Positions 6,325-50,293 of a stretch of 57,634 bases of DNA are shown here, one piece after another. How positions within the stretch are numbered: the stretch's first letter is position 1; every line of letters begins with the position of its first letter. The notes beneath the pieces are model-generated. The model was not told the origin of the DNA. It ran no database searches and saw nothing but the letters and a program-made list of their open reading frames with translations. The position numbers and the translations under genes are program-made. The DNA is from a virus. Location: positions 1-57,634 of the IMG/VR virus record IMGVR_UViG_3300003323_000363. One strand, written 5' to 3'.

Positions 6325-6503
6325 CCTATCAGCGCGAAGAGCTTGCGAAATACTGGTCCGAGTTGCAGCACACCATGTTGGAAGTCGCTCCGCTCAAAGA
6401 TCAGCTCGAAATGGATATTTGCGAGTTCTTCCGGCAGAAAAATATTTGGGAACGACGCGCCAAGCAGCGTATCAAAGACCTGAAAACAAAAAATGGCAGA
6501 TAA
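5782..6503 (+). CDS. Tail assembly chaperone, frameshifted long form (gpGT-like)
   Basis: Predicted product of -1 slippage in the T run: about 142 residues from the zero frame, then 98 residues encoded from 6207 to 6503, 240 in all. The added part is basic and helical (KGGGRKSENGR, then YQREELAKYW and a KNIWERRAKQRIKDLK tail), as expected for the T domain, which contacts tail tube subunits. It ends 11 bases inside the tape measure gene. A sequencing error in the T run could also split one gene, but position and direction favour programmed slippage. Confidence 0.65.
6201..6209 (+). other. Slippery T run for programmed -1 frameshift
   Basis: Nine consecutive T read GGT TTT TTT TTA in the zero frame. 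A slip of one base back on T TTT TTT moves the ribosome into the frame that stays open to 6503. The site, the direction and the position before the tape measure gene match the lambda G / G-T arrangement. No start codon with a convincing context begins the second frame. Confidence 0.7.
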
Positions 6504-9500
6504 AGTTACCAGTGTTTATGATCTTGACGTTACAGGCATTCTTTCGGGCCTTGACAAGGTAGCTACACGTATAACAGAGGTTGATGCACAACTTGACAAA
6601 CTACCAAAAGACCCCTTTAAGGAGGCGGCAGCAGGGGCTAATAAGCTCGACACTGAAATTGCACAGGGCACGCAGAAGGTGGCACAACTGGAATCGGTTA
6701 TTACGTCACTCAGAGCAGAGATAGCGCAGCTCACTGCCGAGCAAACCAAAATGGCTAAGTCCATGAAAACGGCCTCCGACGCTGCAAAGTACGAGCAGAT
6801 AGAAAAAGAGGTTGTAGCGCTCCGCAATGAAATCAAGCGACTCAATAGTGAGCTGGACAAAACCACTCAAAAGAGTCAAAAGGCGGGGTCGATGCTTTCC
6901 AAAATCAAAGGCGGTTTTTTGGGTGCTTTTACTGGTTTTTCTACCGGTGGAGGCGCTGGTGTGCAAGCTGCCGCTGCCGCGCTTGGCACGATAAATCCTG
7001 TATTAGGAGTTACTGCCGGCATATTGGGTAGCGTCGCCGAAAAGGCGGCAAAAGCAACGTCTGAATGGCAGGGATATAATGCCGTGCTAAAAAACTCGCT
7101 CGGCAGCCAGGAATTGGCAACGCAAAACCTTTCAGTACTCGAAAAACTGGCCGCGCAACTTCCGTTTTCGCTCAACGAGGCCACCGAGTCGTTTACGCAG
7201 CTTGTAAACCGTGGGTTTAAACCTACCAAAGACGAAATTAACAACTTGTCCGGCTTTGCCGCGTCTCAAAACAAAACATTTGATCAGCTTATCCAAGCTA
7301 TTCTCGACGCGGAGAATGGCGAAGTAGAGCGATTGAAGGAGTTTGGTATCCAGGCATCGAATCAGGGCAACAAAGTGCGCATAACATTCCGAGGCATCAC
7401 CAAAGAATTCGAAAAAGGCGCTCTTGATTCCGCCTCTGCATTCGCAGCACTCGCCAAAGAATTGGGGAGTGACGCGCTGAATGCGGACAAAATGAAAACG
7501 CTTGAAGGTCGAATGTCAAATTTGAATGACACCGCCGACCGCATTTCTCGAAAATTCGGGCAGGTGTTACTCCCTGTGTTCGAGGCCTTCCTTTCGGTGG
7601 CAGATAAGCTTCTTAGCGTAATAGACGATTCAATCACTGGATTTACTGAATTTGACCGGCAATTGGAGAAAACTGGCGGCACGGCTGCGGTGGCTTACCC
7701 AATTTTAAACAAACTATTTGACTTATTCTCCACAAGTCGCCAAACCGACTCATGGAAAGACTGGTTCTTTAATTTGAATGCTGGGTTTGAAAGGCTTATA
7801 AACCTTGCGGAGTTATTCGCCGGCGTTATGTCAAACCTGACAAATCCTGCCGAACTAACAAAAGTATTGGCGAGGTTTGCCGCCAATGATTCTATCATAA
7901 GCCAAGCCGTAAATGCCTATTACCATCCAAGTATAGAGTCAAGACGCGCAAGGAGAAGAGGGAATACGGATGATTTTCAATATGGGCCAGGCTCTCCTAT
8001 GGCACCTCGCGAGTTGACGGATGCCGAAAAGGCGCTTTTGGCTCGTCGTGCGAATGAGTTGAAAGACCTGGAAAAGAAATTGGCCGATGAACTTTTACGC
8101 ATCCAAAACGAATACGGCAAAGAGCGGCTAGAATCGTTGCGCGACAATGAGCTGGTTTATATCGAAGAAAAGCGCAAATACGATCTGCAACGCGTCGATC
8201 AGGAGCAGCAAGCATTGCTGCGTATAAAGCAAATGATAGCTGGGGCTCAAAGGGGTAGATACGATGCTGCTGGCAAGATTATCCCTGACGCATCAGTCTC
8301 CCTTAATTCGACCGAGACGGCGGCATTTGACGCACGCAGGCAACTTATCAACTCGGGAGCGTATGCAGAGCAAGCCAAGTTTATCAACGATGCTGAGAAG
8401 CAAATCACAGAGGTTATTTCTAACGAATATCAGCGGCAACTACAAGCCGCCGAGTACAAGTATGAAAAACTCATTGAGTTGGCTAAAAAGACCAGCGTCG
8501 ATACTGTTAAAATCGAAAAAGAGAAAAACAAAGAGATTGACGCGATTAACAGGGAGCACGACCTTTCGTTGATCGAAAAGGATCAAAATAAATTTGTTGG
8601 AGGCTCGGAGTTGGACGTATTGCAGGCGCAGATTGACGGCCGGCTTGATTTGGAATTGGAGGCTCGCAAGAAGTCCTTGGAAATAGAGCGGCAATTCAAC
8701 GAGGAAAAGATTAAAATCCTGCAAAAGTACGGCGATGAGGAGTCGCTTGCCCGTATCCTGCCTATTCAGAAGGCCAATCTGGAAATCACCAAGCAGATTG
8801 GCGAGATAGACAAGCAGGCAAAGCAACTTCTAGTTGGCGCTGTCAAAACCGTCATTGATAGCCTACAAGAGGTAAATCAAGCCCAAGAAAGGCTTGTTCA
8901 GGCTCGCATTAGCCGGATCAATGATGAAATATCAAAGAAAGAAGAGCAAGTAAAAAAAGAACAGGAATTGAGCGAAGAGGGGGTTGCAAACAACCTGTCA
9001 TTGCGTCAAAAAGAGCTTGCAGACCTGAAAGCGGCACGTGAAAGAGCTTTGGAGGATCAAAAGCGCTTGCAACGAACACAGTTGATTGTTGATACTGCTT
9101 CGCAGGCAAGCTCGATGATAACAGCAGCGTCAAAAGTTTTTTCTGGGTTTGCTAGCATACCAATTGTCGGCGTAGGACTCGGTATTGCGGCGGTCGCATT
9201 GATGCTGGGCGCATTTGCGGCATCCAAAATAAAAGCATTCCAGCTGGTTAACCAGCAGACGCCAACATTTGGGGATGGTGGAGAGGTTGGCGGAAGGCTG
9301 CATAAGGATGGCGGAACTCTGATCGAGGCGGAGAAAGGGGAATACGTAGTTAACCGTCGCTCGACAGCAGAATACGGCGACCTGATCGAGGCTATCAACG
9401 AAAACCGTCGTGGCGACATTCTGGATTATCTGCTCGATGAGTTGCTTTCTGGCACCGGCGTTTCACTTTCAGAGGCACAGCGCCGGCGGGATATGAAAAC

Positions 9501-9717
9501 CATATCCGATTACCGTAAAGTTAATGGTCAGTCAGAAAATGAAATGCTGATTCGAGAGGTGAAGCGACTTGGCGAAGAGCTACGCCGCATTACAAATAAC
9601 ACCTCAAACATCCCCGACTCTCATCTTGTGCCGCTGGGTAACGGGAAAGTCATGCAAAAAGGGACTAAATCTGGAAATGTTAGCGTGACGGACTATTCTG
9701 AAATGCTTAAAAAATAA
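6493..9717 (+). CDS. Tail tape measure protein
   Basis: At 1074 residues this is one of the longest proteins of the tail block. It opens with a long coiled coil (residues about 20-130). A hydrophobic, glycine- and alanine-rich stretch follows (about 150-190, GVQAAAAALGTINPVLG), then helical repeats, a second long K/E/Q coiled coil (about 510-850), and another hydrophobic stretch near residue 900. This is the usual plan of a tape measure, which fixes tail length and is ejected with the DNA. It starts inside the chaperone long form. The tail would be roughly 150 nm long if the common 1.5 angstrom per residue rule holds. Confidence 0.93.
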   Translation: MADKVTSVYDLDVTGILSGLDKVATRITEVDAQLDKLPKDPFKEAAAGANKLDTEIAQGTQKVAQLESVITSLRAEIAQLTAEQTKMAKSMKTASDAAKYEQIEKEVVALRNEIKRLNSELDKTTQKSQKAGSMLSKIKGGFLGAFTGFSTGGGAGVQAAAAALGTINPVLGVTAGILGSVAEKAAKATSEWQGYNAVLKNSLGSQELATQNLSVLEKLAAQLPFSLNEATESFTQLVNRGFKPTKDEINNLSGFAASQNKTFDQLIQAILDAENGEVERLKEFGIQASNQGNKVRITFRGITKEFEKGALDSASAFAALAKELGSDALNADKMKTLEGRMSNLNDTADRISRKFGQVLLPVFEAFLSVADKLLSVIDDSITGFTEFDRQLEKTGGTAAVAYPILNKLFDLFSTSRQTDSWKDWFFNLNAGFERLINLAELFAGVMSNLTNPAELTKVLARFAANDSIISQAVNAYYHPSIESRRARRRGNTDDFQYGPGSPMAPRELTDAEKALLARRANELKDLEKKLADELLRIQNEYGKERLESLRDNELVYIEEKRKYDLQRVDQEQQALLRIKQMIAGAQRGRYDAAGKIIPDASVSLNSTETAAFDARRQLINSGAYAEQAKFINDAEKQITEVISNEYQRQLQAAEYKYEKLIELAKKTSVDTVKIEKEKNKEIDAINREHDLSLIEKDQNKFVGGSELDVLQAQIDGRLDLELEARKKSLEIERQFNEEKIKILQKYGDEESLARILPIQKANLEITKQIGEIDKQAKQLLVGAVKTVIDSLQEVNQAQERLVQARISRINDEISKKEEQVKKEQELSEEGVANNLSLRQKELADLKAARERALEDQKRLQRTQLIVDTASQASSMITAASKVFSGFASIPIVGVGLGIAAVALMLGAFAASKIKAFQLVNQQTPTFGDGGEVGGRLHKDGGTLIEAEKGEYVVNRRSTAEYGDLIEAINENRRGDILDYLLDELLSGTGVSLSEAQRRRDMKTISDYRKVNGQSENEMLIREVKRLGEELRRITNNTSNIPDSHLVPLGNGKVMQKGTKSGNVSVTDYSEMLKK

Positions 9718-9726: not shown

Positions 9727-11547
9727 ATGGCTTATACCTACACCATTGAATACGCAACCAGGTCACAATCAGTAACCCCCAAAACCATTGGCTCGGTTGT
9801 CGTAGCCAAAGAGGAAGGGGAGGCTTTTTTTCGTGAAAAATTGAGCGGTTCGGTGGTGTTAAACAACGAGGATTACAACTTCTTGCTGGATGCCGAAAAA
9901 TACGCGGTGCAGTGCTGCCAGGAAATCAGGTTTACAATCGTCAGAACTTGCGTAGCTGGGAGTGAAATATTTTGGAAGGGATATTTTACCTTGTACGATG
10001 TCGAGTGGGACCACGACAACCAGGAAGCTACGATCAAAAAAGTCAATGTCAAAGACGAGTATAACGTAGTATTCGCCAACTGGCATAAAGAAATTAACTG
10101 GTTTGGGGATATTCCAAAGCGTCGCCCGGCAGCCGCATATGCGCCAAATCACCCATTGCAACCATTTACGCAGACGATCATTACCAGCGAAGGGTACAAT
10201 CCGACAGGAAGCAATTATTTTCCTCGCGGATTTTACTTCAACTACGCCATTTTGTGGCTTGTGCAGCAAACCATGAAAGACACCGGATCTGAGGCTTACG
10301 CTGATATTACCGAGGCGCAGATGTCTTCTTTCCTTACAGCAGCTACCAACCCGGTAACAGGTAAGGCCAATTATTTGCCTGATGTGATCATGATGCACAT
10401 ATCTGATGCAAAGAGGCCAGGGGCATCTGATCCGGCATGGAAAGGGGTTGTAACTCTGCGCGATGTGTTAGCGAATTTGAAACAGCTTTACAATGCTTAT
10501 TGGTATATTGATGATTCTGGACATTTTAGAATTGAACACATAAGCTACTTCCGAAACTTTTCATACACTTCGCCAGGTGTTACGCTGGACCTTACGCAAG
10601 ATGCTTTTAAAAGCAAAATGGAAGGTAAACGCAAATTTTCGTGGAACGCAGAAGACCTAAAAGGCCGCGAAGGGGTTGAACAAACGATGGCTTTGGCTGG
10701 CCAAGAGGCTGATTCTACTATCTGGACACTGTTTGCTGGACCAAGTAGCCCAGAATTCGCTGCGGCTTACATGATTTACGAAGAAAATTGCGTTCCAAAA
10801 AACGATAAAGGGGAGTCTGGTGAGTCGTATCAGTCAATATCGCTGTTCACGACGGATTGGCTTACGGTGGTTAACAAACCGGATGTGACACCGGAAGAAG
10901 GATGGGTACTGGTTTATGTCCCTATCGTCAATGCAGAAAACGCGGTAGCCTACGGATGGTGTCCAATAGACGGCGAGCAGTGGATAAATGGGAACCTGTC
11001 TATGACCCGCCTTTTTTATGAGTTTGGAAGAACAGAGTTGTCGTTTTCTTACGGAAAAATGTCCTTTGAGAAAGAGACAGAGAAAAAGGATATAGACTCC
11101 GAGAACTCGTACATTTCCAGGCCAATGAGGGCGAAAAGCACAAAGCAGGTAAAGATTTTGGAGCCGATAGAGCTGGATATGTGCTGCGGCGATGAGTACA
11201 ATTTTTCCGGCATCATCAAGCACCCGCTCGCGGATGTTTCATCTGCTCAAAAGATCGAATATGATTTAAGCACAGAAGTGGTAACTTTGAGTTTAATAGC
11301 ATCAAATACTTGCGACGATATACCATTTCCCGAGTATGAAGAGCCGACGGAGCCAAATCCAGAATGCCCGGAAGAAGGGAAGTTGTTAAGATCAGACCTA
11401 ACAGATGTTTACCATGCAGATACGGCCATTAATTACGTCCGAATCGCGGTATATACAGATTATTATGCTGATGGTAATTGCGGGGAATATTCAACCATTA
11501 GAGAAGTGACAAGTACTACACCAAAAAGACAAAACGGCCCACGGTAA
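9727..11547 (+). CDS. Distal tail / baseplate protein
   Basis: A 606-residue protein directly after the tape measure, the position of distal tail proteins. The N-terminal 130 residues are beta-rich (GSVVLNNEDYNFLLD, FWKGYFTLYDVEWD) and suit a Dit-like or hub domain. Later parts hold strands with many aromatic residues. A short acidic proline-rich stretch (EEPTEPNPECPEE) comes near residue 540, and a basic tail ends in KRQNGPR. It probably links the tube to the adhesion proteins. Position and beta-rich make-up are the evidence; there is no catalytic motif. The stop overlaps the next ATG by one base. Confidence 0.6.
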   Translation: MAYTYTIEYATRSQSVTPKTIGSVVVAKEEGEAFFREKLSGSVVLNNEDYNFLLDAEKYAVQCCQEIRFTIVRTCVAGSEIFWKGYFTLYDVEWDHDNQEATIKKVNVKDEYNVVFANWHKEINWFGDIPKRRPAAAYAPNHPLQPFTQTIITSEGYNPTGSNYFPRGFYFNYAILWLVQQTMKDTGSEAYADITEAQMSSFLTAATNPVTGKANYLPDVIMMHISDAKRPGASDPAWKGVVTLRDVLANLKQLYNAYWYIDDSGHFRIEHISYFRNFSYTSPGVTLDLTQDAFKSKMEGKRKFSWNAEDLKGREGVEQTMALAGQEADSTIWTLFAGPSSPEFAAAYMIYEENCVPKNDKGESGESYQSISLFTTDWLTVVNKPDVTPEEGWVLVYVPIVNAENAVAYGWCPIDGEQWINGNLSMTRLFYEFGRTELSFSYGKMSFEKETEKKDIDSENSYISRPMRAKSTKQVKILEPIELDMCCGDEYNFSGIIKHPLADVSSAQKIEYDLSTEVVTLSLIASNTCDDIPFPEYEEPTEPNPECPEEGKLLRSDLTDVYHADTAINYVRIAVYTDYYADGNCGEYSTIREVTSTTPKRQNGPR

Positions 11548-14500
11548 TGTATAACTACCTTTCCAGCTTCCCATTTAACGCCGGGCAAGGCAACTCTTCG
11601 GATTGCGAGTGTTCAGGGCAAGCATTTGATCCGGCCAAATTCAAGCTTTATTCTGAGTCCGACCGGCTGCCTACCTTTTCTCTTCGTGTTTTAGCGATGG
11701 GCGAAAACCCTGATTTGACATATGCTAACGAGTGTGTCAGGGTGTTCACATGCGATGGCAAAGACATGGTGAAAAATATTACCATGGAAGAGGCTGGCAT
11801 AAGGTTGATGAAAGACACCGGAACTTACTTTATCATCTATGACGGCGGTAAGATAGCAGGCATGAAGCTGGACTGCGGCAAGTGCTACCGGTTGAAGATA
11901 ATGTCTTACTGGTCCGAGCCTTTCTGGATAACGGACACGCCGCAATCAAAAATTGTCATCGAGTTCAAGAACACTTCGAGTCAGGTAGGAGATGTGCCAT
12001 ACCAGGCTGAAAACTTTGTTCAACGCATCATGGTTGACGGAGAAATCTGCTCAATGGATGCGGAGATATTCGAAAACAAAAAGTCTGACGCTAACGGCAA
12101 TGAAACTGTCACGTTCCAGCGCATGACAATGCGCAAGGGATTGGCGATATTTAATGCGCCGGACTTCATCAATCAGCTAATTGGCTCCATCAAAATTATT
12201 GAATCCTACAAGGTCATTCACAAAGCCAGAACGTACGAGCCATTGGCAAAGAGAAGTACGCTGGAATCTACAAAAAACGGCTGCTGCGACTATGATATAA
12301 ACATTACAATGCCGCTCCGTGAAAGTTCTTTTTCGGGGGGCAAATGTCAAACGGACGCTGATGGCGTTTTAACAGAGGTTGAAATCCCTGACGATCTGCC
12401 TGACTCATGCGAAGAAGACGATGACTGGACCGAGACAGGGCAAACGCTATGCTTGGAATTTGGGAAAGTGCCAGAATTGCCACCGCCTACACTTCCTCCG
12501 GTTGGAACGCCTCCTGTTGGCGCTCCATGCCCTCCAAACGGCACCGTTGTTTCAAACACTACCGTTACGCAATCTTGCGATAACCCTTTCGAGTCAGAAG
12601 GTATCAAGTACAAGAAAAAAGTAACCAAGTTGATTGCCGACGGAGCTTGCGGTACGACTGAGCAAATCCAATATATTGAGCCTTGCGGGGCAGGCGGCGC
12701 TACCCACACCGTTTCAAACGTAAACTGCGGCGGAGGGGTTACGCCTACCCCGCCAGTCGGAACACCTCCTGTTGGGACGCCTCCGGTAGGTACTCCCCCC
12801 GTTGGTACTCCCCCGGTGGGAACACCACCAGTCGGCACGCCTCCTGTGGGAACTCCGCCGCCGTCAGGCAGCGCCAAATATGAGTTCATTATGGGCACCA
12901 CAGGCGGCGGATTTGACAGAAATGCGACTCACGGCATAGGGCAGGATTGGATTGACCGAATAGAGGCATTCAACTACTCGTGGGGATGGGGAATTACCGG
13001 CATTTCGCTTTGGATTCACTGGGACAACTACGAGCCCACTTCTGGTAATTTCCAAACGGCTGCACTGCAAAGGGCGATTTCGTACTGTAATGCCAGAAAT
13101 TTGGGATTGAGCGTATTCTGGCTTGGCACCAGGACTGAGGGTGATGGATTCATTAATGATGGGGAGAGGGTAAAAGGCTCGAATGGAACAATATACTTGG
13201 AGGGTGTGCCTGGATTTGGTAAAATCTACGCCGGATATGGCTGCGATAGGGTAAATGCGTTGATGGTGCCGGCGATACAGTCCGTTGCCAACACACTCAA
13301 AACATATTCCAAGGCTTTTGCTATGTTTTTGGGTGGGGGACATACGGGAGAGCTTATAAACCACATTATCGTCAAGGACGGCGTATGGGAATGTGGGGAC
13401 TTCTCAGACGATAACCTTTCGAGATTTAATGCATGGGTTGCGCCTCGTGGGCTGGCATCGCCTGGAACTCCACCAATGATACAGGGACCTGGTATCCCAT
13501 GGCCGCACCCGGACTTTGGTGATGCTCGTGGATTGGAATTCGCAAGGTTTACCACTTACAACATTGCCAAGTACTACAAAAACTTCTGCAATGCTGTAAA
13601 GGCGGTATCCAGCCTGCCGTGTATCTACGTGTATGCCGCTGCCGATAATTTGCAGCTCCGAAGCACTGCCAACGCGGCTATGGACTACATTGGTCAATAT
13701 GGAGACGGCATGTATGGGTCTGAGGGGGATGGATTATACGACCACATTGCTAAAATACGAGTCAACAGCGTAAACGTGGGTACATTCCCTAATGGCATAT
13801 CATGCGTAGAGTTTGACCCGGATGATTTGAGTGTTTACCGGTACAGCTACGGAACCACGCCGCCATACTGCCAGGCAAACCCGCAATATGGGCAGCTTAA
13901 AACAAGCGCCGAGTTCCTGTACAGTCGAGGCGTTCGCGTTATTCATACTGCAATGGCGTACTGTCCTTCCGAAATTGTACAGATGGGATCGGTATTGCAG
14001 CCTCTTTGGCAGACATACATAGGCAAACCGTTCGCGTCACCTCCTATCAACAGCGGCAACAGGATTCAGTGCGAAGTGACAGGGCCGTATCGTAATAGCG
14101 AGAATATTCTGGACCACTACGGAGTGAACCCCAATACGCAATATGCAAGGTATACGAGTGCTGATTACTGGGGCGGAGTTCCTCCCGAAGGAACGGGAGG
14201 TGGCACACCGCCGCCAAGCGGCACTAATCCGGCGATTGATAACTATCTAAACAGCAACCTGGCAGCATATCAAAGCAATATCCTTTTTGATGTTAAAAAG
14301 GCGACACAGACGCCATATAGCTATACGCAAGGGGCTTATACAAGAACATCTATGATGCCGGTAGCGTCGCTTTCGAAAGCAGTTTCGGCGGCGGTCCTTT
14401 TAACACTCATTGACGACGGGTTGCTTTCATTGAGCACTACGGTGGGTAGCCTGATTTCGTCATGGAATAGCGGAGCAAAGGCGGGAATCACCTTGAAGCA

Positions 14501-15131
14501 AATAATCAGCCACACAGCAGGTATTGCGCCTGACACCACAGAGGCATTAGATGGCAGTGCAACATTGGAAGCCTATGTAGACGCATATGCATCTTACGCG
14601 CTGGCAAATACGCCTGGAACTGTTTTCGCTTACAGTACGCACCCATATAATATCGCCGGAAGAATGGCCGAAGTTGTTACGGGGCAAACATGGAAACAGC
14701 TTTTTGAATCCCGTATACGTAACAAGTGCAGCATGGGTGATGCTATTTATAACCCGAAAGACCCATATCAACCTATTTCTGGTAATCCCAATCAGCCGAA
14801 TGTGGGTCATGGATTGTGGATTACTCAACAGGCGTATGCTAACTTTATGGGAATGATTAGAGATGGCGGGGTTTATAATGGGGTTCAGGTGATCAGCTCA
14901 ACAAACTTGCCACTTATCTGGACAGACATGACAACCGGACTAGGACCATGGGGATTTGGTATGATCATGAATGACTCAGGCAACGAACCTACGGCAGAAT
15001 CTGCAAAAGGTTGCTACGCATGGGTTAACAGGTCGAAACAATATGCAGGTGTATTATTCACTCAGGCAGAAAATGCAGCGACGATTGGCCCTAATAATGG
15101 ATTGAGAGACATTGTAAGAGCAAATTATTAA
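11547..15131 (+). CDS. Modular tail protein: glycosidase-like domain plus beta-lactamase-like domain
   Basis: A 1194-residue multi-domain tail protein. Residues 1-300 form a cysteine-containing virion domain. Proline hinges follow near 317 and at 403-437 (seven PVGTP units). Residues about 440-870 look like a TIM-barrel glycoside hydrolase of the GH42/GH35 kind (ISLWIHWDNYEPTSGNF, MFLGGGHTGEL). After a GGGTPPPSG hinge, residues about 895-1194 match the serine beta-lactamase/esterase family (PF00144). That domain has Ser941-x-x-Lys944 in ASLSKAVSA, Tyr1029-Ser-Thr at the second motif where many members have YxN, and the ISHTAGI block. It may degrade or bind host glycans and peptides at the cell surface. 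Which activities are retained cannot be told from sequence. Confidence 0.8.
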   Translation: MYNYLSSFPFNAGQGNSSDCECSGQAFDPAKFKLYSESDRLPTFSLRVLAMGENPDLTYANECVRVFTCDGKDMVKNITMEEAGIRLMKDTGTYFIIYDGGKIAGMKLDCGKCYRLKIMSYWSEPFWITDTPQSKIVIEFKNTSSQVGDVPYQAENFVQRIMVDGEICSMDAEIFENKKSDANGNETVTFQRMTMRKGLAIFNAPDFINQLIGSIKIIESYKVIHKARTYEPLAKRSTLESTKNGCCDYDINITMPLRESSFSGGKCQTDADGVLTEVEIPDDLPDSCEEDDDWTETGQTLCLEFGKVPELPPPTLPPVGTPPVGAPCPPNGTVVSNTTVTQSCDNPFESEGIKYKKKVTKLIADGACGTTEQIQYIEPCGAGGATHTVSNVNCGGGVTPTPPVGTPPVGTPPVGTPPVGTPPVGTPPVGTPPVGTPPPSGSAKYEFIMGTTGGGFDRNATHGIGQDWIDRIEAFNYSWGWGITGISLWIHWDNYEPTSGNFQTAALQRAISYCNARNLGLSVFWLGTRTEGDGFINDGERVKGSNGTIYLEGVPGFGKIYAGYGCDRVNALMVPAIQSVANTLKTYSKAFAMFLGGGHTGELINHIIVKDGVWECGDFSDDNLSRFNAWVAPRGLASPGTPPMIQGPGIPWPHPDFGDARGLEFARFTTYNIAKYYKNFCNAVKAVSSLPCIYVYAAADNLQLRSTANAAMDYIGQYGDGMYGSEGDGLYDHIAKIRVNSVNVGTFPNGISCVEFDPDDLSVYRYSYGTTPPYCQANPQYGQLKTSAEFLYSRGVRVIHTAMAYCPSEIVQMGSVLQPLWQTYIGKPFASPPINSGNRIQCEVTGPYRNSENILDHYGVNPNTQYARYTSADYWGGVPPEGTGGGTPPPSGTNPAIDNYLNSNLAAYQSNILFDVKKATQTPYSYTQGAYTRTSMMPVASLSKAVSAAVLLTLIDDGLLSLSTTVGSLISSWNSGAKAGITLKQIISHTAGIAPDTTEALDGSATLEAYVDAYASYALANTPGTVFAYSTHPYNIAGRMAEVVTGQTWKQLFESRIRNKCSMGDAIYNPKDPYQPISGNPNQPNVGHGLWITQQAYANFMGMIRDGGVYNGVQVISSTNLPLIWTDMTTGLGPWGFGMIMNDSGNEPTAESAKGCYAWVNRSKQYAGVLFTQAENAATIGPNNGLRDIVRANY
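12753..12857 (+). repeat. Seven tandem 15-base units encoding PVGTP
   Basis: Seven direct units of five codons (Pro-Val-Gly-Thr-Pro) lie back to back in the tail protein gene. The units differ at many third codon positions but encode the same peptide, so selection seems to act on the protein. The stretch is a stiff proline hinge between the virion-bound part and the glycosidase-like domain. A shorter copy lies near 12496. Confidence 0.9.
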
Positions 15132-15132: not shown

Positions 15133-17697
15133 ATGGGAACATTAACTTTTTCACTACCCACAGCCCCTCTCAGACCAGAGCCATTGACTTTTAGCGTACT
15201 GCGAGAGGGAGACACAAGGGAGCGTTTTATTATTCGAAACGGATTTCAAATCCAGTTTGACGAAGATACTGGCGACAACTTGGTGTATACCCTTAAAATA
15301 ACGGACGCCAATGGATTGCCTTCCAGTCAAAAGTTCACGCTTGGGTGTGTCCGACCTCCTGACTGTGATCAGGGCCCCATATTGCTCAGCATAGTTTCAT
15401 TTTCGGCCACTGGCATCGTTTATACGTTCCATGGCTCGAATGTAAACCAGATCCGCCGGAACATCATACAAAATGGCGTAATCATAGACACGGCTGTGGA
15501 TGTGCCAACGAGCGCGACTGTTTCTTCAAACTTTTCGACCACACTTAGTAATGGGCAATACACATTACAGATAGAAGGGGAGTCTTGTTATAGCGAGACG
15601 CCGCAAGGACTCACTTTTTTGATTACAGATAGTGGATCAGAGTTAGATTGGTGGCCGAACTATCCTTTGGCAACATACAATGCCGATGAAGGCGCATTTA
15701 GGATCAACTTGGCGATCAACAGGGCGGGAGAATATCCATATTCCATCAAAGACTCTTCTGATGTGGTTCTTCACTCAGGCGTGTGGACATTCGCGCCTGG
15801 GGAGATATTCTGGATTGGCGGGTTTACGCCTGACGACTACGAGGTGTCGGTCGGTCCACTCACAGAGACAGTTTACATTGTTGATATTCCTGCTGAATGT
15901 GACGAAGGTCCCGAGCTACTGGAAGTAACAAGCATCAGTCCAACGCAAACGACATTTAGATTTCATGGTATCAACGTATTTGTAATTGAATGGTTTATCA
16001 GGAATACATCTGATGTAGTAGAGCATACTGGCACCGTAGAGCCGGGCGGCGCTGTTGTGACTATCAATCACCCGGCACTATCTGGCGGCACACACAACCT
16101 GCTGATTAAAGGAGCTAGCTGTACCTCTGAAACGGGAGTGGTCGACAATTTGGATTTTAGTGTGTCGGTGGGCTCTGTGTCTATCACATCTATTGTCGTG
16201 TCTCGCAGTGAAACAGACGGTAGATATAGGCTGAATATCAACTTTACAGGAGGTATACCGAATTATACTATTACTGTTCGCGGCACAGCTAACAATACGA
16301 TTGCCACGTTCCCTAACACAACCGGTAGCCCGGCTACCGTTCTTCTGCCGGCAGGCACTTTGCCACAGACGGTAAAGGTAATGGTCATGGATGTGCAAAA
16401 CTCATTCGATGAGGAAACGGCTGTTATACTGGCGGCTGGAACCCCTTCTCTGTTTTATGTACAATCAGATTCATTTGGAGGGCCAATTGCAAAAACACCA
16501 ATGTCTGCCGATGATTTAACTTTTTTCATCGGTAGCGCGACGAATTTTAATTGGGACATAGAATTTAACTTGCCGAATGGCGGACAGTGGGATTATATCG
16601 AAAAAAAGCTGAGAAAGTATGTGTCAGGCACTCCGCAGATAAGGGACATTGCGGCGGCCACACAGCAGCCAGCGAATTATTCCGTATCCGGGTCTTCGAA
16701 TGCAGAGCGCCTTTGGATGCCGCGCACGCCGAATGTAATTACTATCGACAGCCAAAACGTATTCAAGACGGCCAATAAATGGGAAGTGACATTTATTGCC
16801 AGGCGCGGCGGCGCAGCAGGCACTATTGTCGGTCAAATCACACGAACTTTTACGGTGAGCGCTCCGCCGACGGATTCGGGAATATATTTATACAACCGAA
16901 GCGGTGGCACGTTAGGCAGTTTGATCGGTCAATTGCACTCTACCGGCGACTCGCTGCCAAAGCCTACTCCACATTTTGATTTTGCATTTCAGGATATGAA
17001 CGGAACCGTTTTTTACGGAGCGGCAATCTATCTGAGACAAAAAGTAGGTAGTAGTTATACCACAAGGGCGTCTAATAACGAATATTGGGCAGGTGGGAAA
17101 ACGACCCTAACAACGTCTGATTTTACTCTATTTAAAGGGCAAGACCCGACAAACCCAGTTTTCGCGCCAATATTCGCACAGGAGCCTGGTTCTTGGCAGG
17201 TAGAAGTACAAGTTTGGAACGCAGCCAACACGCAGGTGCTAGGGACAAGGGTTGCTTATTTTGATTTTACTGTATCCACTACGAGTTTTTCAAACCCAGG
17301 GTTTCAAAGATCAACAGCTTCTGGCGTAGAGGGGATGCGAATTGATGGTATCGACTTTGGCGTAAAGCAACTGTCGTCCGGCAACTGGCAACTGTCGCAC
17401 CCTGCAAACAGAACATCTTTGAATGGGCAAAATACGTGTTATCCATGGGTTTATTTGAATCACGTTAGATTTGACGCAACAGAACTTGCAGCTTTTCGTA
17501 GCGGTTCTGGATTAGCGTTCCCACCAGGCAAGCATACCGTTTCAATCAAGTGGCATAGCAACGCAGTGCATAACTATGACGACGTGATAGATGGTGGAGA
17601 TGCAGGTAACGCATATTGGCTTGCTGGCGAGCAGCTTGATATTTCTGCTGGATATAGCAACATGGATGACTATTTCACATTTGTAGTTTTAGAATAA
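15133..17697 (+). CDS. Large tail-tip or fibre protein with repeated Ig-like domains
   Basis: An 854-residue, beta-rich protein with no signal peptide or enzyme motif. Two segments of about 90-110 residues are clear tandem relatives. One starts at CDQGPILLSIVSF and contains YTFHGSNV; the other starts at CDEGPELLEVTSI and contains FRFHGINV. They suggest Ig- or fibronectin-like modules from about residue 75 to 345. More beta domains follow, and the C-terminus is rich in W, Y and H. A role in host binding, as a side fibre or baseplate arm, is likely from the position among other adhesin-type genes. Confidence 0.65.
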   Translation: MGTLTFSLPTAPLRPEPLTFSVLREGDTRERFIIRNGFQIQFDEDTGDNLVYTLKITDANGLPSSQKFTLGCVRPPDCDQGPILLSIVSFSATGIVYTFHGSNVNQIRRNIIQNGVIIDTAVDVPTSATVSSNFSTTLSNGQYTLQIEGESCYSETPQGLTFLITDSGSELDWWPNYPLATYNADEGAFRINLAINRAGEYPYSIKDSSDVVLHSGVWTFAPGEIFWIGGFTPDDYEVSVGPLTETVYIVDIPAECDEGPELLEVTSISPTQTTFRFHGINVFVIEWFIRNTSDVVEHTGTVEPGGAVVTINHPALSGGTHNLLIKGASCTSETGVVDNLDFSVSVGSVSITSIVVSRSETDGRYRLNINFTGGIPNYTITVRGTANNTIATFPNTTGSPATVLLPAGTLPQTVKVMVMDVQNSFDEETAVILAAGTPSLFYVQSDSFGGPIAKTPMSADDLTFFIGSATNFNWDIEFNLPNGGQWDYIEKKLRKYVSGTPQIRDIAAATQQPANYSVSGSSNAERLWMPRTPNVITIDSQNVFKTANKWEVTFIARRGGAAGTIVGQITRTFTVSAPPTDSGIYLYNRSGGTLGSLIGQLHSTGDSLPKPTPHFDFAFQDMNGTVFYGAAIYLRQKVGSSYTTRASNNEYWAGGKTTLTTSDFTLFKGQDPTNPVFAPIFAQEPGSWQVEVQVWNAANTQVLGTRVAYFDFTVSTTSFSNPGFQRSTASGVEGMRIDGIDFGVKQLSSGNWQLSHPANRTSLNGQNTCYPWVYLNHVRFDATELAAFRSGSGLAFPPGKHTVSIKWHSNAVHNYDDVIDGGDAGNAYWLAGEQLDISAGYSNMDDYFTFVVLE

Positions 17698-22087: not shown

Positions 22088-25000
22088 ATGATCGAAGCAA
22101 ATATTTCTGGCGAAAAGTTGACCCTTATTTTTAGGACTGGGAAAAAGGGAGATAAGGGTGACACCGGCGCGACTGGATCACAAGGGCCAAAAGGCGACAA
22201 AGGTGAAAAGGGGGACAAAGGTGATAAAGGCGACCAAGGACTACAAGGCGTGCAGGGAGCACAAGGGCCGAAGGGTCTTCAAGGCGACCAAGGAGAAAAG
22301 GGAGATACCGGAGAAAAAGGGGAAATTGGCAATACTGGACCACAAGGACCACAGGGAGCCCAAGGAATACAAGGAGTTAAAGGAGATACCGGGGCGAAAG
22401 GAGATACCGGGGCAAAGGGCGACAAAGGAGATACTGGCAATACTGGACCACAAGGACCACAGGGAGCCAAGGGCGATACCGGGGCGAAAGGAGACACAGG
22501 CGCACAGGGGCCTGCCGGCGCAAAAGGCGAGAAAGGCGATAAGGGTGATCGGGGAGATCAGGGTTTACAAGGTGTTGTAGGGCCAAAAGGAGAAAAGGGG
22601 GACAAGGGTGACCAGGGAGAGCCAGGGTTTGTTACGGCAGAGCTGGTTCAGCTCGCTGCACAGGTCAATCAAGATGCCGTGAATGTGTCCAGTAAGGCGG
22701 CCCAGGTTCAAACCCAGTCGCAGCAGGTCGAATTGAGTGCCTCGCAGGTTGCTGCTGATAAAATTTCAGCGGACCAGTCTGCATCAGATGCCAACGAGGC
22801 AAAATTAGCCGCACAGCAAGCGGCGGCTGGCGTAATGCCAGCAATAGGAACTTATGACGCAAGTATTAACCAAGGTAAAGTAAATGAGACAGGAGTCACT
22901 TTTACGCCTACTACTGTCGCATCATACCCAAACGGAGCATCGTTTAAAGTTATTGTAGAGGGGTCTCAGTCGATAACTGGGCAAACTCAAATATTCAAAG
23001 AAGGAGGTACGCTACAAAGTACTGGTACAAAATGGCTATATGTCCCGCCTGAAAAATCGGGTTATGATTTGGCAAATTCTATCCAGCAGCAACTATTTCA
23101 ATCTGAAATCATTGGCGACTCGTCGGTTCCTCAAACAACATCTACTTCAAATACGATATACCGCGTCAACATTAACCAGGATGAAATATTTACTGTATCA
23201 GGCAAGGCGACATTCTTAGCTATATATTTTATGGCAGGTGGAAACGCTAGATTGATTCATCTAAGGAAAAACCAATCACTTAATAAGTATACAGAAGTTG
23301 CCAGATACCAGGTAGCTGTTGTAAGCGGAATGAATAATATCGATTTACAATCGCTAAATATCCGGGTTAATGCAGGAGATACATTTGCGATACAGCAAAT
23401 TGAAAACTTGGTTAGGCCAGGTGCGAATGGTACAGGCAAGGGCATTTCGGCATATACAGCGGCAAGCTCTTCCGCTCTGGTTGAATTTACATCGGCTGCC
23501 GTAGAGACGCCCACCAACAATGGCGTCGTTGTTTACTCAGTAACGGTTGTAAGAAACCTTTTAACAGATAACACATCCGATTTATATCAGGCACAGGCTG
23601 ACATAGATGATCTGTATGGACAAACCGGCGATTTGTTAGCGTTTCAGGAAAATGTAGAACCAAAAATAACGGCAATACAGAATAGTATTTACCAAGACAA
23701 GGAGTTGCAGATTTACGATGTGCCTGCCGATAATCAGCCAAACTGGAATGCAAACACATTTTCTGGCTGGTTCTACGGGTATAAATCTGCTAGTCCAGAG
23801 AGACTGATTCGTATCCGTGGACGACTTAGCTTTGTGAATGTAAATCAAAAACTAACATTGCGCATTATCCGCCGGCCAGCATCCGAATCTACTTCGGCGG
23901 TGATTCCAGGCGTAGGCGCTAATGATGTGATTTTGCAAACAATTGATTATTTGACTACTCAATTTGAGGCCCACAATGCATTGCAATACGTCAATATGCC
24001 GTTCACGGAATTTACAACCGATGTAAACTTCCTGTACATTTTCCATGTACGTGGATATTTGACCGGAGGTGGAGTTGGAGATCTAGGCAGCGATAGAGCA
24101 ATTATTACTCCAAACGTACTGCCGCAATATCAAGTAGGGTGGTATAATGACAATAGCGGAGTGGCGCAAGTCCTGAGCACGACTATTACTGCCGGTAGGG
24201 CTACTTTCAGACTTTACGGACTTAGTCAATATGATAGAATATCTTCTAATTCTACTGCTGTTTCAGATTTGAAAGTTACAGCAAAGAGAAGGCCAATGGC
24301 CAAGGGGGTATTGCTTTATAGTAATGCTCTTACATCAATTCCATTGGACTGGACTTCGCTAAACTGGTCGGTTGTTTCTGGGGGCCTCTCGCCAAGTGCC
24401 ACCGGAATGGCAAATTGTCTGTCATTGAACAATCAATACAATCTAAGCAAAAGAAAGGCAGAGGTAAGGGTAAAATTTGGGGCCAACACTAGGTTCCTGC
24501 TTTTTACCAAGGCGTTGGAGACAAATGCAAATTTAGGAACAGTTGTAGAGTGCGATGTTTCCGCATCAAAAATTAGAATTTATGATGCATACACGAGTAA
24601 CAATGTGTTGCCATCAACGGTGAGAGCATCGTCTGACTACACGTTTGTTTCTGGTAGGGAATATATAGTACAAATTATCAAGAATGACTTTGATAATACA
24701 ATCAAAGTCATTGACACCCTTACCGGCTTATCTACAAGCTTAACTGAGTCTACAAACACATCTGGACGGCAGCACGACCAATATGCAATGTGCTGTTATT
24801 CAGGAGAATTTCCAATTGTGAGGGCATTTCGAGTTTCTACCCCATATCAATTGAATTGTCTGGCGATGGTAATGGGAGATAGCATTACCGAGGCTCGTTA
24901 CACTCCTCTTACTGTTGCTGATGGATATGCATTTAAGCTATTAGCTGCGCTTTCTGGCGACGGAGGGGTTTCTGGTCGCGGTAGCGGAACTATTACGGGC

Positions 25001-25393
25001 GTTTTGAGAAGAATAGATACAGAAATTGCTTTTATACGCCCAAGCTACGTTATTGTAACCATTGGTACTAATAGCGGTAATACAACAGATAACCTAAACG
25101 AGCTAGCAGATAAAGTTGCTTCATTGGGGTGTATTTTGATTTTGAATAACGTTCCATTCAGGGGAAATAATGATAACCTTATTACAAATCCGGTTATTCA
25201 ATCAGTAAGAACGAATAAGAATTTAACAGGGTGTCTATTCGATAATGCCACAGCGATAGGAAACGTCGTGGCAAACGGACAAGATCAAAGTTTGTTTATC
25301 AGTGACTCTGGAATATGGGTTCACCCAAACGTCGCCGGGCACCAAAAGATGTTTGAGAGGTTTTCGATAGATACACCTCAATTGTTTGATTAA
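22088..25393 (+). CDS. Collagen-like tail fibre with C-terminal SGNH hydrolase
   Basis: A 1101-residue fibre. Residues about 20-179 are G-X-Y repeats (GDKGDTGATG, GPQGPQGA), a collagen-like triple-helix shaft. A helical trimer segment and several beta domains come next. From about residue 925 the end is an SGNH/GDSL esterase: GDS with Ser932 in VMGDSITEA, a GRGSGT block, GTNSG, and HPN with His1079. The residue three before that histidine is Ile rather than Asp; the nearest Asp is 1073. It probably removes acyl groups from surface sugars during adsorption. It is the last gene of the plus-strand block. Confidence 0.88.
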   Translation: MIEANISGEKLTLIFRTGKKGDKGDTGATGSQGPKGDKGEKGDKGDKGDQGLQGVQGAQGPKGLQGDQGEKGDTGEKGEIGNTGPQGPQGAQGIQGVKGDTGAKGDTGAKGDKGDTGNTGPQGPQGAKGDTGAKGDTGAQGPAGAKGEKGDKGDRGDQGLQGVVGPKGEKGDKGDQGEPGFVTAELVQLAAQVNQDAVNVSSKAAQVQTQSQQVELSASQVAADKISADQSASDANEAKLAAQQAAAGVMPAIGTYDASINQGKVNETGVTFTPTTVASYPNGASFKVIVEGSQSITGQTQIFKEGGTLQSTGTKWLYVPPEKSGYDLANSIQQQLFQSEIIGDSSVPQTTSTSNTIYRVNINQDEIFTVSGKATFLAIYFMAGGNARLIHLRKNQSLNKYTEVARYQVAVVSGMNNIDLQSLNIRVNAGDTFAIQQIENLVRPGANGTGKGISAYTAASSSALVEFTSAAVETPTNNGVVVYSVTVVRNLLTDNTSDLYQAQADIDDLYGQTGDLLAFQENVEPKITAIQNSIYQDKELQIYDVPADNQPNWNANTFSGWFYGYKSASPERLIRIRGRLSFVNVNQKLTLRIIRRPASESTSAVIPGVGANDVILQTIDYLTTQFEAHNALQYVNMPFTEFTTDVNFLYIFHVRGYLTGGGVGDLGSDRAIITPNVLPQYQVGWYNDNSGVAQVLSTTITAGRATFRLYGLSQYDRISSNSTAVSDLKVTAKRRPMAKGVLLYSNALTSIPLDWTSLNWSVVSGGLSPSATGMANCLSLNNQYNLSKRKAEVRVKFGANTRFLLFTKALETNANLGTVVECDVSASKIRIYDAYTSNNVLPSTVRASSDYTFVSGREYIVQIIKNDFDNTIKVIDTLTGLSTSLTESTNTSGRQHDQYAMCCYSGEFPIVRAFRVSTPYQLNCLAMVMGDSITEARYTPLTVADGYAFKLLAALSGDGGVSGRGSGTITGVLRRIDTEIAFIRPSYVIVTIGTNSGNTTDNLNELADKVASLGCILILNNVPFRGNNDNLITNPVIQSVRTNKNLTGCLFDNATAIGNVVANGQDQSLFISDSGIWVHPNVAGHQKMFERFSIDTPQLFD
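22328..22468 (+). repeat. Exact 33-base duplication in the collagen-like shaft
   Basis: The same 33 bases, beginning GGCAATACTGGACCACAAGG, occur at 22328-22360 and at 22436-22468. They are 108 bases apart, which is 12 whole G-X-Y triplets. Shorter copies of GGAGATACCGGGGC lie between them. Unequal exchange between such copies would change shaft length without breaking the frame. Confidence 0.9.
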
Positions 25394-30236: not shown

Positions 30237-31376
30237 CTAAATACTCAACTGAACAACCGGAAACACCATGATTGCAATATCTTCATCGTCTTCCGCATCA
30301 GGTTTAATGACCGCTGGCTTGCTGGTTCCGTTCATGCACATAGTAAAGTCGCCTGAAACATTAGCCAGCGCGTCCAGTAGCCGTTTTGAGTTAAAGCTGA
30401 TCGATAGTGAGTCGATTTCGCTGGAAATCGCAATATCCTGATTACTCCGCGTGTTCTTTTCTTCAAAGCCAGACGAAATAAATAGGTTATTCCCCTTAAA
30501 ATCGAGCGAAACTTCCGGTTCTTTGAAGTTGGCGAATATATTTGCACGTTTTACGCACGCCTTCAATAGTTCAGAGTTGACGCTGGCCTCATACTCGAAA
30601 GATTCCGACACATGATCTCTTTTGCCTGGATAAACGCCTTCAACCAAAACAGAATACGCCTGCCAATCGCCGGAATGAACCTTAATCATTTTTCCTGAAA
30701 TGTCAATGGTCACGTTTTTCTCTGAATCGCCTATCGAGTCGGAAAGGAGCTTTGCGAACCGGGCTGGGATAATCAACTCCTTGTCCTTCGCATCTGTTTC
30801 GTGTTGGCGACTGTAATATGAGAAAGTGAATCCGTCTGTTGCAATAAACTCCAAACATCCGGGGAATACTCGCATACTTACGCCGCAAAGTTCTGGACGC
30901 AATACGTTTTCACTCACAAATCCCACAACCTGGTTGATGCCTCGTTGCAGCTTTTGCGCTGGCAGCACGAGAGACTCCCCGTCTTTCACTTCCGGCACTC
31001 TAAAATAAGCCGTCGGGTCCTCACAAGGAATAGTGAACAGATCCGATTCTACCGCCAATTCGAGGCTAAAATTCATCAAACCTTCTACTGTATACGTGAA
31101 CGTGGCGGAAGTATTTGGAAGCGCGGTAAGCGTTCGAATGAGCAAATCGGCCGGCGCAAGTATCGAAACCTCTTTTTCTTCCATTTCGAGCTCGCTGCAC
31201 TTTGACTTGATTCGCAGTGTTGCGTTCCCATCGCTGGCCGTCACGACCATTACTTTGTCGTTCCTGACGTAAATCAGCACACACTCGAAAACCGGTGCTA
31301 TTTTGTTATTCGGTAGTACTCGCGCCGCGAATTGCAGCGATTTTAAAAATTCTTTCGTATTAACGGTGAATTCCAT
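30237..31376 (-). CDS. dnaN: DNA polymerase III beta subunit, sliding clamp
   Basis: A 379-residue protein with the three-domain plan and length of bacterial beta clamps: MEFTVNTKEFLKSLQFAARVLPN at the start, AGINQVV-like and GVSMR segments in the middle (ELCGVSMRVFPGCLEFIATDGF), and a final MVFPVVQLSI. The typical clamp end binds partner proteins. The ATG at 31376 is chosen because the longer frame runs through the upstream gene. The clamp holds DNA polymerase on DNA. No phage polymerase is present, so it probably serves a host polymerase or phage repair proteins. Confidence 0.88.
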   Translation of the reverse strand: MEFTVNTKEFLKSLQFAARVLPNNKIAPVFECVLIYVRNDKVMVVTASDGNATLRIKSKCSELEMEEKEVSILAPADLLIRTLTALPNTSATFTYTVEGLMNFSLELAVESDLFTIPCEDPTAYFRVPEVKDGESLVLPAQKLQRGINQVVGFVSENVLRPELCGVSMRVFPGCLEFIATDGFTFSYYSRQHETDAKDKELIIPARFAKLLSDSIGDSEKNVTIDISGKMIKVHSGDWQAYSVLVEGVYPGKRDHVSESFEYEASVNSELLKACVKRANIFANFKEPEVSLDFKGNNLFISSGFEEKNTRSNQDIAISSEIDSLSISFNSKRLLDALANVSGDFTMCMNGTSKPAVIKPDAEDDEDIAIMVFPVVQLSI

Positions 31377-31380
31377 TTTG

Positions 31381-31683
31381 TTATAATTTTTCGATTGCTT
31401 CAATAAACTGGTTGAGACCGGCGAACTGCTTTGATTTTTCGGAGAGGCGCTCAAAGAAAAGCTGCGCCGCAATTGATGAGTTAGCGTAGCAAACATAGAT
31501 TCTCTCACCGCAAAATGAATATTCGTTGTATTGCGCGTCAATTACATCTTCCAATGCCTCTTTTTCCAGTTTAATAGCCGCGCACTCTTTTTCGAGCCTT
31601 TGGGTCGTCTCTTCTTTTTGGTCGAACTCCTCTTGCCATTCGATGAGTATTTTTCTCACTTCTTCAATCCGTGATTGTGCCAT
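31381..31683 (-). CDS. Hypothetical coiled-coil protein (100 aa)
   Basis: One hundred residues, with a coiled coil in the first half (EEFDQKEETTQRLEKECAAI) and a helical second half (LFFERLSEKSKQF). It ends 4 bases before the clamp gene and overlaps its upstream neighbour by 20 bases. The family is not known. Confidence 0.6.
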   Translation of the reverse strand: MAQSRIEEVRKILIEWQEEFDQKEETTQRLEKECAAIKLEKEALEDVIDAQYNEYSFCGERIYVCYANSSIAAQLFFERLSEKSKQFAGLNQFIEAIEKL

Positions 31684-32532: not shown

Positions 32533-33140
32533 ATCCTTTTTGGTGTTGTCATTGCTAAATCGACCCCCATCTTTTTTATTCGTCGCTTCATAGACATATA
32601 GGTGATGCCAAATTCTCTCGACAAATCCAAAACTGTTCTCATTTGGCCTTGATAGACAGCATATGTTGTGGTTGTTTTGTTTTTGTTCTGCTCTGACTTC
32701 GGAACCCAACGGCAGTTAGATGGCTCATAATTACCGTTGACATTAATCCTATCTATCGTCAATCCTGGCTCATATCCGTTATCCATAGACCATTGATAAA
32801 AAGACATGGGATTTTCTGACCAATCTTTACATACCGATATTCCTCTGGCTCCATAATGTTTATAGCTTTTTATATTTGGATTATTACATCTCTGCTTCAT
32901 ATGGTTCAAAATATTTGCCATAGGGGTATGTGATAGCCCGTGCTTACGAAAATATACTTTACGTTCATTGTGCTTTCTACATCCACAACTTTTAGATCGG
33001 CCAGACACCAAATACCTGCACGAAACTTCTTTTTCAACTCCGCAAGTGCACCTACAAAAGACGCAGATTTCTTTCCCTATTTTTCCGCATTCGGCAATTA
33101 CAGTCCAACTGCCGAATGCGGCTCCAATTTCTAATTTCAT
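32526..33140 (-). CDS. HNH endonuclease with zinc-ribbon start (homing-type)
   Basis: A 204-residue protein. The first part has a zinc ribbon (CRCTCG, then SCGCRKH). The central part is the HNH pattern of phage homing-type nucleases (MKQRCNNPNIKSYKHYGARGISVCKDW, then LTIDRINVNGNYEPSNCRWV). The end holds a small helical DNA-binding motif. It lies as a tight insert between recT and the metallohydrolase gene, overlapping both by 4-7 bases. Such genes are often mobile, and its sequence looks more AT-rich than its neighbours. Confidence 0.85.
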   Translation of the reverse strand: MKLEIGAAFGSWTVIAECGKIGKEICVFCRCTCGVEKEVSCRYLVSGRSKSCGCRKHNERKVYFRKHGLSHTPMANILNHMKQRCNNPNIKSYKHYGARGISVCKDWSENPMSFYQWSMDNGYEPGLTIDRINVNGNYEPSNCRWVPKSEQNKNKTTTTYAVYQGQMRTVLDLSREFGITYMSMKRRIKKMGVDLAMTTPKRIW

Positions 33141-34039
33141 GGGAAGTCGTTTTCTTCTTCCTGTGATTGTTCCGGCTCTGCTGGTTTTTCGACTGTCTGC
33201 TTAACGCGCTCTTTTTGCTTTTCAACCGGAACCGTTTCGAGTTTCGCAGCCGGCGGTAGCGCGATTGTTTTCGCTTCGATAGATGGTCGGTCGTTTACAA
33301 CTTCGTGAGTTCGGTCCACAACTTCCGTTTCATCGTCCGTGGTGAAATCTTTCTGGTAAACGTTCGCGTCCTGCGAAGCGTTAATGATCGGCTTCAATGC
33401 CCGCTGAATAATGGTCCGCTTTGCGGCCTCCACGTCAAATTGCGTTTGCAGCTTATTTTTCTCACCCTTCGCGCGGGACATATTCCAGCTTTTTCGAATC
33501 TGCGCCATTGTCATTAAATCAACTGCCTTTTTACCATTCTGGAATGTGATGAACACATAAGCGCCAACAATCGGCTTGTCCAAGTTGGTAAACTCCTGTT
33601 CGTGGACAACCGAAACAATCTTGCCGCCTTCCAGGATGTGAGCGAATTTATCTCCTTCGTGGATTGTGTACGGGTCAACATCCACAACGCCGGCCACGCG
33701 ACGTGCAACCGCCTCCGATCCAAAATAGGACCTAATCATTGTGCAGTTATTGCCGTATGGGATAAAATAGCACTGGTTGCGAATAGCACTCAATCCAGCG
33801 GCGGCCATATTGAATAGAGCGTTTGCGACTGATTCAGCCGAACAAACCTCCATAATTGGTTTGCCATAGTCTCCTTCTCCCTGGCGCGGCTGCGTCAAAA
33901 TAAAATACGCCTGCCGAACCTCATTCTCAACAAGGTACCCTTCCGGGATGACAAACCCGCCTTGCGTAAGTTGATTGATCCGGCCAAGCACCTGGTCTAC
34001 CAATTCCTTTTTTACTTTTTCAACATTCTCATTAGCCAT
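33137..34039 (-). CDS. recT: RecT-family single-strand annealing protein
   Basis: A 300-residue RecT recombinase. Core segments are visible: GFVIPEGYLVENEVRQAYFIL, CSAESVANALFNMAAAGLS, CYFIPYGNN and the RKSWNMSRAKGEKNKL region. An acidic, proline-rich tail ends in EEENDFP, perhaps for contacts with single-strand binding or partner proteins. It anneals single strands during phage recombination. No lambda-type exonuclease is present; the metallohydrolase two genes down is a candidate partner. A promoter with an overlapping operator lies upstream at 34064-34085. Confidence 0.88.
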   Translation of the reverse strand: MANENVEKVKKELVDQVLGRINQLTQGGFVIPEGYLVENEVRQAYFILTQPRQGEGDYGKPIMEVCSAESVANALFNMAAAGLSAIRNQCYFIPYGNNCTMIRSYFGSEAVARRVAGVVDVDPYTIHEGDKFAHILEGGKIVSVVHEQEFTNLDKPIVGAYVFITFQNGKKAVDLMTMAQIRKSWNMSRAKGEKNKLQTQFDVEAAKRTIIQRALKPIINASQDANVYQKDFTTDDETEVVDRTHEVVNDRPSIEAKTIALPPAAKLETVPVEKQKERVKQTVEKPAEPEQSQEEENDFP

Positions 34040-49798: not shown

Positions 49799-49870
49799 TT
49801 CCCAATCGTTCAATGGATAGGATTCCCGGCTTCGAACCGGGCGATGAGAGTTCAAATCTTTCTTGGGAAA
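49799..49870 (+). tRNA. tRNA-Arg (anticodon TCG)
   Basis: Acceptor TTCCCAA/TTGGGAA, a D arm, anticodon stem CCCGG/CCGGG with loop CTTCGAA, and T arm loop TTCAAAT. All stems pair, with some G-T pairs. It reads CGN Arg codons, mainly CGA. Confidence 0.9.
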
Positions 49871-49875
49871 CAAAC

Positions 49876-49948
49876 TTTGCGATAGCTCAATCGGTAGAGC
49901 GTCTGACTTTGATTCAGAAGGTTTCAGGTTCGACCCCTGATCGCAAAA
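49876..49948 (+). tRNA. tRNA-Gln (anticodon TTG)
   Basis: Acceptor TTTGCGA/TCGCAAA, D arm GCTC/GAGC, anticodon stem TCTGA/TCAGA with loop CTTTGAT, T arm TCAGG/CCTGA with loop TTCGACC. It reads CAA and CAG. Confidence 0.92.
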
Positions 49949-49989
49949 CGAAACGAGGTGATCGCATACCTACCGTAGCCGGAAAAATT

Positions 49990-50024
49990 GGTGTCGTGTA
50001 CAGGCGGGGAAAGACCCGCACACC
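49990..50024 (+). other. Hairpin between tRNA-Gln and tRNA-Pro
   Basis: GGTGT (49990) pairs with ACACC (50020), and GCGGG (50004-50008) with CCCGC (50015-50019), around a GAAAGA loop with a 9-base bulge on one side. It may be a processing signal or a worn tRNA. The 75-base gap it lies in is much longer than the other tRNA gaps. Confidence 0.45.
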
Positions 50025-50099
50025 TGGTAGTAGAGGAGTCAGGTTTATCTCATCGGACTTGGAATCCGAGGCACGCAGGTTCGAATCCTGCCTACCAGA
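50024..50099 (+). tRNA. tRNA-Pro (anticodon TGG)
   Basis: Acceptor CTGGTAG/CTACCAG, a short D arm, anticodon stem TCGGA/TCCGA with loop CTTGGAA, and T arm GCAGG/CCTGC with loop TTCGAAT. It reads CCA and CCG. Confidence 0.9.
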
Positions 50100-50105
50100 C
50101 AAAAT

Positions 50106-50177: not shown

Positions 50178-50181
50178 AATT

Positions 50182-50255: not shown

Positions 50256-50293
50256 CAATTTTGTTTCTTAATTTTTGTTTTGTTATTTAGCGG

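Follow-up and report, generated by a model that had tools for sequence, protein, structure and literature searches.

Analysis of the tail region in a 57,634-nucleotide (57.6 kb) stretch of DNA from a virus record, called the window below, reveals an intact open reading frame (11547–15131, plus strand, ATG to stop) for a protein of 1194 residues, in which two predicted enzyme domains are strung behind a conserved tail domain. The order of its parts is N-terminal domain, PVGTPP linkers, a (β/α)8 barrel resembling glycosidases of families GH42 and GH35, a short Gly/Pro hinge and a serine-hydrolase domain of MEROPS family S12 (penicillin-binding/esterase type). We consider it reasonably probable that this protein is a modular tail-tip depolymerase, which cleaves the host surface polysaccharide and removes acyl or ester groups. 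The glycosidase half of this proposal is based on the fold and a conserved pair of glutamates, the acyl-hydrolase half on the fold and the Ser/Lys/Tyr residues; catalytic activity and the polysaccharide substrate are both inferred.

The gene follows, on its 5′ side, those of the tape measure protein (6493–9717, plus strand) and of a 606-residue tail hub/Dit-like protein (9727–11547, plus strand), whose role is assigned from its position and which is 63% identical in the sister phage L137; its start overlaps the stop of the latter gene. On the 3′ side lies the gene of an 854-residue protein with Ig-like repeats (15133–17697, plus strand), related to the Ig-like modules that precede the barrel in prophage homologues, and farther downstream a GH108 endolysin and a collagen-type fibre are encoded. 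The order tape measure gene, 606-residue protein gene, present gene or its counterpart is common to the window, L137 and the prophage L121. The N-terminal domain (residues 1–394, approximately 1–395; 11547–12728, plus strand) thus directly follows the tape measure and hub genes, and this synteny, found here and in two sister phages, agrees with the earlier note, which had placed a virion domain ahead of the enzymes. Gene order together with the conserved N-terminus suggests that the 1194-residue protein sits on the tail tip, the N-terminal domain docking it on the distal tail. The proline hinges described in the same note correspond to linkers rich in PVGTPP repeats at residues ~313–331, ~401–439 and ~881–895, which would hold both enzymes away from the tail. 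The sequence of the second, (PVGTPP)n (residues 401–440; 12747–12866, plus strand), contains a tandem repeat at 12759–12853 and recurs at the equivalent place in L121 and L137; the Gly/Pro-rich hinge between barrel and S12 domain (~882–895; 14190–14232, plus strand) is modelled with a pLDDT below 50. The relatives of the virus point to a host among the Spirosomataceae, the family of Dyadobacter.

Comparison with related tail loci shows what can follow the N-terminal domain. In L137 (57.5 kb), a phage whose tail genes are arranged as in the window and are ~42–71% identical, residues 1–395 are kept (62% identical) and are followed by an unrelated module of 620 residues (L137:11288–13165). This module had no match in Pfam or PHROG and no meaningful one in the PDB (E values, all above 0.4, were taken as chance), and the barrel HMM did not match it; it is probably another enzyme or a receptor-binding domain. 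In L121, a tail cluster from a genome of the Dyadobacter family, the gene is 56% identical (52–53% in the N-terminal domain) and ends after the barrel. Two more distant clusters carry the N-terminal domain alone (L155, 329 residues) or before Ig-like repeats (L154). As the N-terminus is kept while the modules behind it are swapped in these four loci, it looks like a core tail component and the enzymes like exchangeable cargo. L124 has a PF00756 esterase (E=5.5e-17) behind the barrel, in the place of the S12 domain. Nothing, Ig-like repeats, barrel, barrel plus S12 or another module, together with barrel plus esterase, thus form a natural swap series, in which the contribution of each module can be tested directly.

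The barrel (about residues 440–885; 12864–14202, plus strand) gave no significant single-sequence match in Pfam or PHROG: the GH42 model PF02449 did not match up to E 10, in a search where control genomes did match, and the GH35 model PF01301 matched nothing in the window and only the relative L123, at E=0.012, below the cut-off. A profile of nine barrel sequences searched against the PDB, on the other hand, retrieved β-galactosidases (best E=4e-4), with PslG also listed at E=0.14. The separate AlphaFold2 (AF2) model of the barrel, selected with a pLDDT of 82.3 and a pTM of 0.88 (the other four models reached 63–68, and the alignment of 8 sequences is thin), contains eight barrel strands, and similar strands are present in the larger model of residues 436–1194. 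Structure comparison with GH42, GH35 and GH164 enzymes gave VIA Z scores of 22–25 over 300–380 residues, the best being 24.8 for GH42 (5e9a), 23.9 for GH35 (6tbk) and 23.1 for GH164, so that the glycosidase-like domain announced in the earlier note is indeed predicted to have a GH42/GH35-like fold (Z 24–25). Glu602 is located after strand 4 and Glu755 within strand 7 of the predicted barrel, the sites of the acid/base and the nucleophile in clan GH-A enzymes, and both are invariant in the nine aligned sequences, down to 25% identity. The likeness to GH42/GH35 β-galactosidases (5e9a, 4d1i/6tbk, 8z43; Z 22–25) thus comprises the (β/α)8 barrel and both glutamates, whereas sequence identity is only 10–16%, the PF02449 and PF01301 models do not match and the putative acid/base has no Asn before it. 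This Asn typically precedes the acid/base Glu of clan GH-A; the nine-sequence alignment has Gly601-Glu602 in the window and Glu-Glu in other sequences.

Barrel relatives, up to 60% identical, were found in 32 of the 222 genomes searched from the family to which Dyadobacter sp. CY261 belongs, and samples of 390 genomes from the order and 395 from the class yielded no barrel match beyond genomes already seen in the family. With this barrel a glycosidase-like family is defined for which Pfam has no model and which was found here only in Spirosomataceae and in phages. One distant relative (L088:523–2790) is probably a host protein, with a signal peptide and a T9SS C-terminal sorting domain, which suggests that barrels of this family also work as secreted enzymes of cells. 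Genome G051 has six copies of the barrel gene over several contigs (e.g. L125:8857–10554 and L126:9436–11247), and L126 lies within a prophage-like tail locus.

For the C-terminal domain (residues 893–1194; 14223–15128, plus strand), the beta-lactamase-like assignment of the earlier note is confirmed by a PF00144 match over residues 930–1176 (E=1.1e-27, 97.6 bits against a curated cut-off of 27) and by the AF2 model of residues 436–1194 (26 sequences, mean pLDDT 84.9). The S12 part of this model aligns with 5tgf, also the best PDB match by sequence (E=6e-19), with a Z score of 36.2 over 297 residues, which corresponds to the serine beta-lactamase/PBP fold, and with the family VIII esterases EstG, 4ivi and Est-Y29 with Z 34. 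Such family VIII carboxylesterases and EstG- or 5tgf-type hydrolases share SxxK, the Tyr and the fold (Z 34–36) with the window domain; they differ in their ~20–25% identity and in that the window domain follows a glycosidase-like barrel in a phage tail protein. Alignment places the SxxK motif at Ser941-Leu-Ser-Lys944 and the second motif at Tyr1029-Ser-Thr, exactly where the note had read them, and the loss of Ser941 and Lys944 in all relatives, which was looked for, did not appear: Ser941, Lys944 and Tyr1029 are invariant in all aligned phage S12 domains. The third motif, HxG (the KTG equivalent), is replaced in the window by Ala1150-Glu-Ser, the register of the alignment being fixed by L170, which has HYG at this site before a common A-x-G-C. 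The YxN motif is likewise absent, reading Tyr-Ser-Thr in the window, Tyr-Ser-Thr/Ser in its clade and YGG or YGS in other relatives, and only its Tyr is invariant among the phage sequences. R61-type DD-peptidases carry both HxG and YxN, and S12 proteins as a whole range over peptides, esters and amides. By alignment, then, the Ser/Lys/Tyr machinery appears intact and the canonical peptidase and beta-lactamase signature does not.

The S12 domain could instead be a D,D-carboxypeptidase or endopeptidase that trims stem peptides of peptidoglycan at genome ejection, the barrel only clearing the outer polysaccharide. This is the main rival because mycobacteriophage tail proteins of the same fold, such as Omega gp39, are annotated in this way. 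Tail-tip S12 domains are indeed already known: Omega gp39 carries this motif and was detected in virions by mass spectrometry (PMC3706429), and minor tail proteins of mycobacteriophages (phrog_382; BFVD entries Zenon, MooMoo, Raela, TChen and SkiPole), for which the peptidase role has been proposed, resemble the window protein by HMM and by fold, ranking among the top viral fold matches. The S12 domain further matches phrog_382, "minor tail protein with lysin activity" (E=1.1e-14, residues 935–1079), over positions 129–273 of the 655-position profile and not over its full length, and the Streptomyces R61 DD-peptidase is among the PDB sequence matches. We nevertheless regard this alternative as rather unlikely. 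Ala-Glu-Ser and Tyr-Ser-Thr stand in the place of HxG and YxN, the nearest bacterial relatives are lipoprotein-like S12 enzymes, and in a diderm host the first barrier before an enzyme at the tail tip would be the outer membrane. The mycobacteriophage proteins differ from the window protein in their mycobacterial hosts, and no glycosidase barrel is reported for Omega gp39; the S12 domain of the window has its nearest relatives among Spirosomataceae enzymes.

The closest cellular relatives are Dyadobacter proteins (L007 and L008; 36–38% identity across nearly the whole domain); they are stand-alone enzymes with a lipoprotein-like signal, encoded outside phage loci, whereas the window domain is part of a phage tail protein. 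L006 is 22% identical, and among S12 matches in gut "phages" (H3–H5), H3 (L003) was left out as it is flanked by bacterial-type genes.

The earlier note had left the choice between trimming peptides, trimming esters and mere binding, and the comparison narrows it. Removal of ester or acyl groups from polysaccharide is favoured over peptidoglycan trimming by the lack of HxG/KTG and by the esterase joined to a sister barrel. An ester rather than a peptide target is thus inferred from the loss of HxG and YxN, from the single partner swap in L124, where the esterase takes the place of S12, and from the existence of tailspike deacetylases, documented as are tailspike glycosidases (PMC11126041). Those capsule-specific enzymes are likewise tail-borne and modular, with glycosidase or esterase activity, which for the window protein is a prediction; they are of pectate-lyase/GH28 or SGNH type with one activity per spike in the cases compared, whereas a single chain in the window unites an S12 domain with a GH42/35-like barrel. 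The third reading, in which one or both domains are catalytically dead modules that bind receptor glycans, would account for the missing Asn before the acid/base and for the degenerate third S12 motif, and modular swapping fits receptor recognition. Conservation of the catalytic residues argues against it and makes it improbable in our view: no aligned phage relative, across 37–60% identity and in both domain orders, has lost either glutamate of the barrel or the Ser, Lys or Tyr of S12.

In the depolymerase that we favour, the clan GH-A-like barrel would act as a retaining glycosidase (Glu602 acid/base, Glu755 nucleophile) that cuts the host surface polysaccharide, and the S12 acyl hydrolase (Ser941 nucleophile, Lys944/Tyr1029 base) would strip off esters or other acyl groups, thereby either exposing bonds to the barrel or changing the receptor. 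With both activities the phage could attach to the exopolysaccharide coat of its Spirosomataceae host, thin it and pass through it.

The pair of domains is not confined to the window. Barrel followed by S12 is present in four phages, namely the window, L129 (an IMG/VR contig identical at the pair gene to L122 of genome G062), the metagenomic phage L130 and L123. The trees of the two domains are congruent, (window,(L129,(L130,L123))), with support of 95/97 for the clade of S12-bearing barrels and 100/98 for that of the phage S12 domains. Because both trees give the same order, the pair has travelled as a unit between a signal-peptide/Ig context and a tail-anchored one, in one direction or the other. 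The reversed order (fn3 and S12 ahead of a barrel from this family; barrel HMM E=8.8e-39) is found in the prophage L171, where the gene lies between a phage-tail-repeat fibre and another tail protein on a contig also called viral by IMG/VR. Opposite domain orders imply that the pair was assembled at least twice. That S12 was captured independently for each order was considered: the tree separates them, but a single clade is not rejected (p-AU 0.33), and therefore only two fusion orders are claimed. L170 was also rejected as a second reversed pair, its C-terminal part being weakly barrel-like (2.5 bits) and cut by the contig end. It is nearly as likely as not, although here we are more hesitant than for the window protein itself, that Spirosomataceae phages assembled, at least twice and in opposite order, a two-enzyme tool from a new GH42/35-related barrel and an S12 hydrolase, which cooperatively dismantles acylated surface polysaccharide at the tail tip or after export.

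Export is at the centre of a further alternative, according to which the cassette is mainly secreted by infected or lysogenic cells, either to free progeny from the matrix or to exclude superinfecting phages; the fusion to a tail protein would then be a derived form. Seven proteins (L129, L123, L125, L126, L131, L132 and L136) have an N-terminal segment that resembles a signal peptide by eye, and several such carriers lie near tail genes; pair homologues of this kind in some prophages may be secreted and not virion-borne. We hold this to be very unlikely, since the window protein lacks a segment of this kind and has the N-terminus of sister-phage tail proteins, and other tail-region genes of Cytophagales prophages also begin with such segments. 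Many tail-region proteins of these prophages, although encoded near virion genes, have a Sec signal-peptide-like segment at their start, for example MKNLLIAVLLAFCQVVSAQ. Signal-peptide-like starts were noted at L129:9467–12256, L131:9488–11275, L132:1–1782, L136:9455–11269, L123:8074–10914 and L154:1814–4162.

When the full protein or its separate domains served directly as queries, phage tblastn, a plasmid search, and viral and genome pattern scans retrieved nothing, which the later family-wide genome searches attribute to divergence. A limited literature search found no tail fusion of S12 with a glycosidase, which is weak evidence of absence. Notable are the two-enzyme chain, an addition to the architectures of phage tail enzymes, the recurrence of the pair in either order and the clear swap series; the phage-tail S12 fold has so far been "lysin-like" by annotation, and this set of proteins allows peptide to be asked against ester.

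Elsewhere in the window, the collagen-repeat tail fibre encoded at 22088–25393 has in its C-terminus (residues 927–1092) a very weak GDSL lipase match (E=0.4) and might be a second surface esterase. A DNA polymerase III beta clamp, matched by all three Pfam domains, is encoded at 30237–31541, near a RecT gene (33137–34039) and an SbcC-like gene (34095–36101), and five tRNA genes (Arg, Gln, Pro, His and Met) are clustered at 49799–50256, upstream of the packaging genes.
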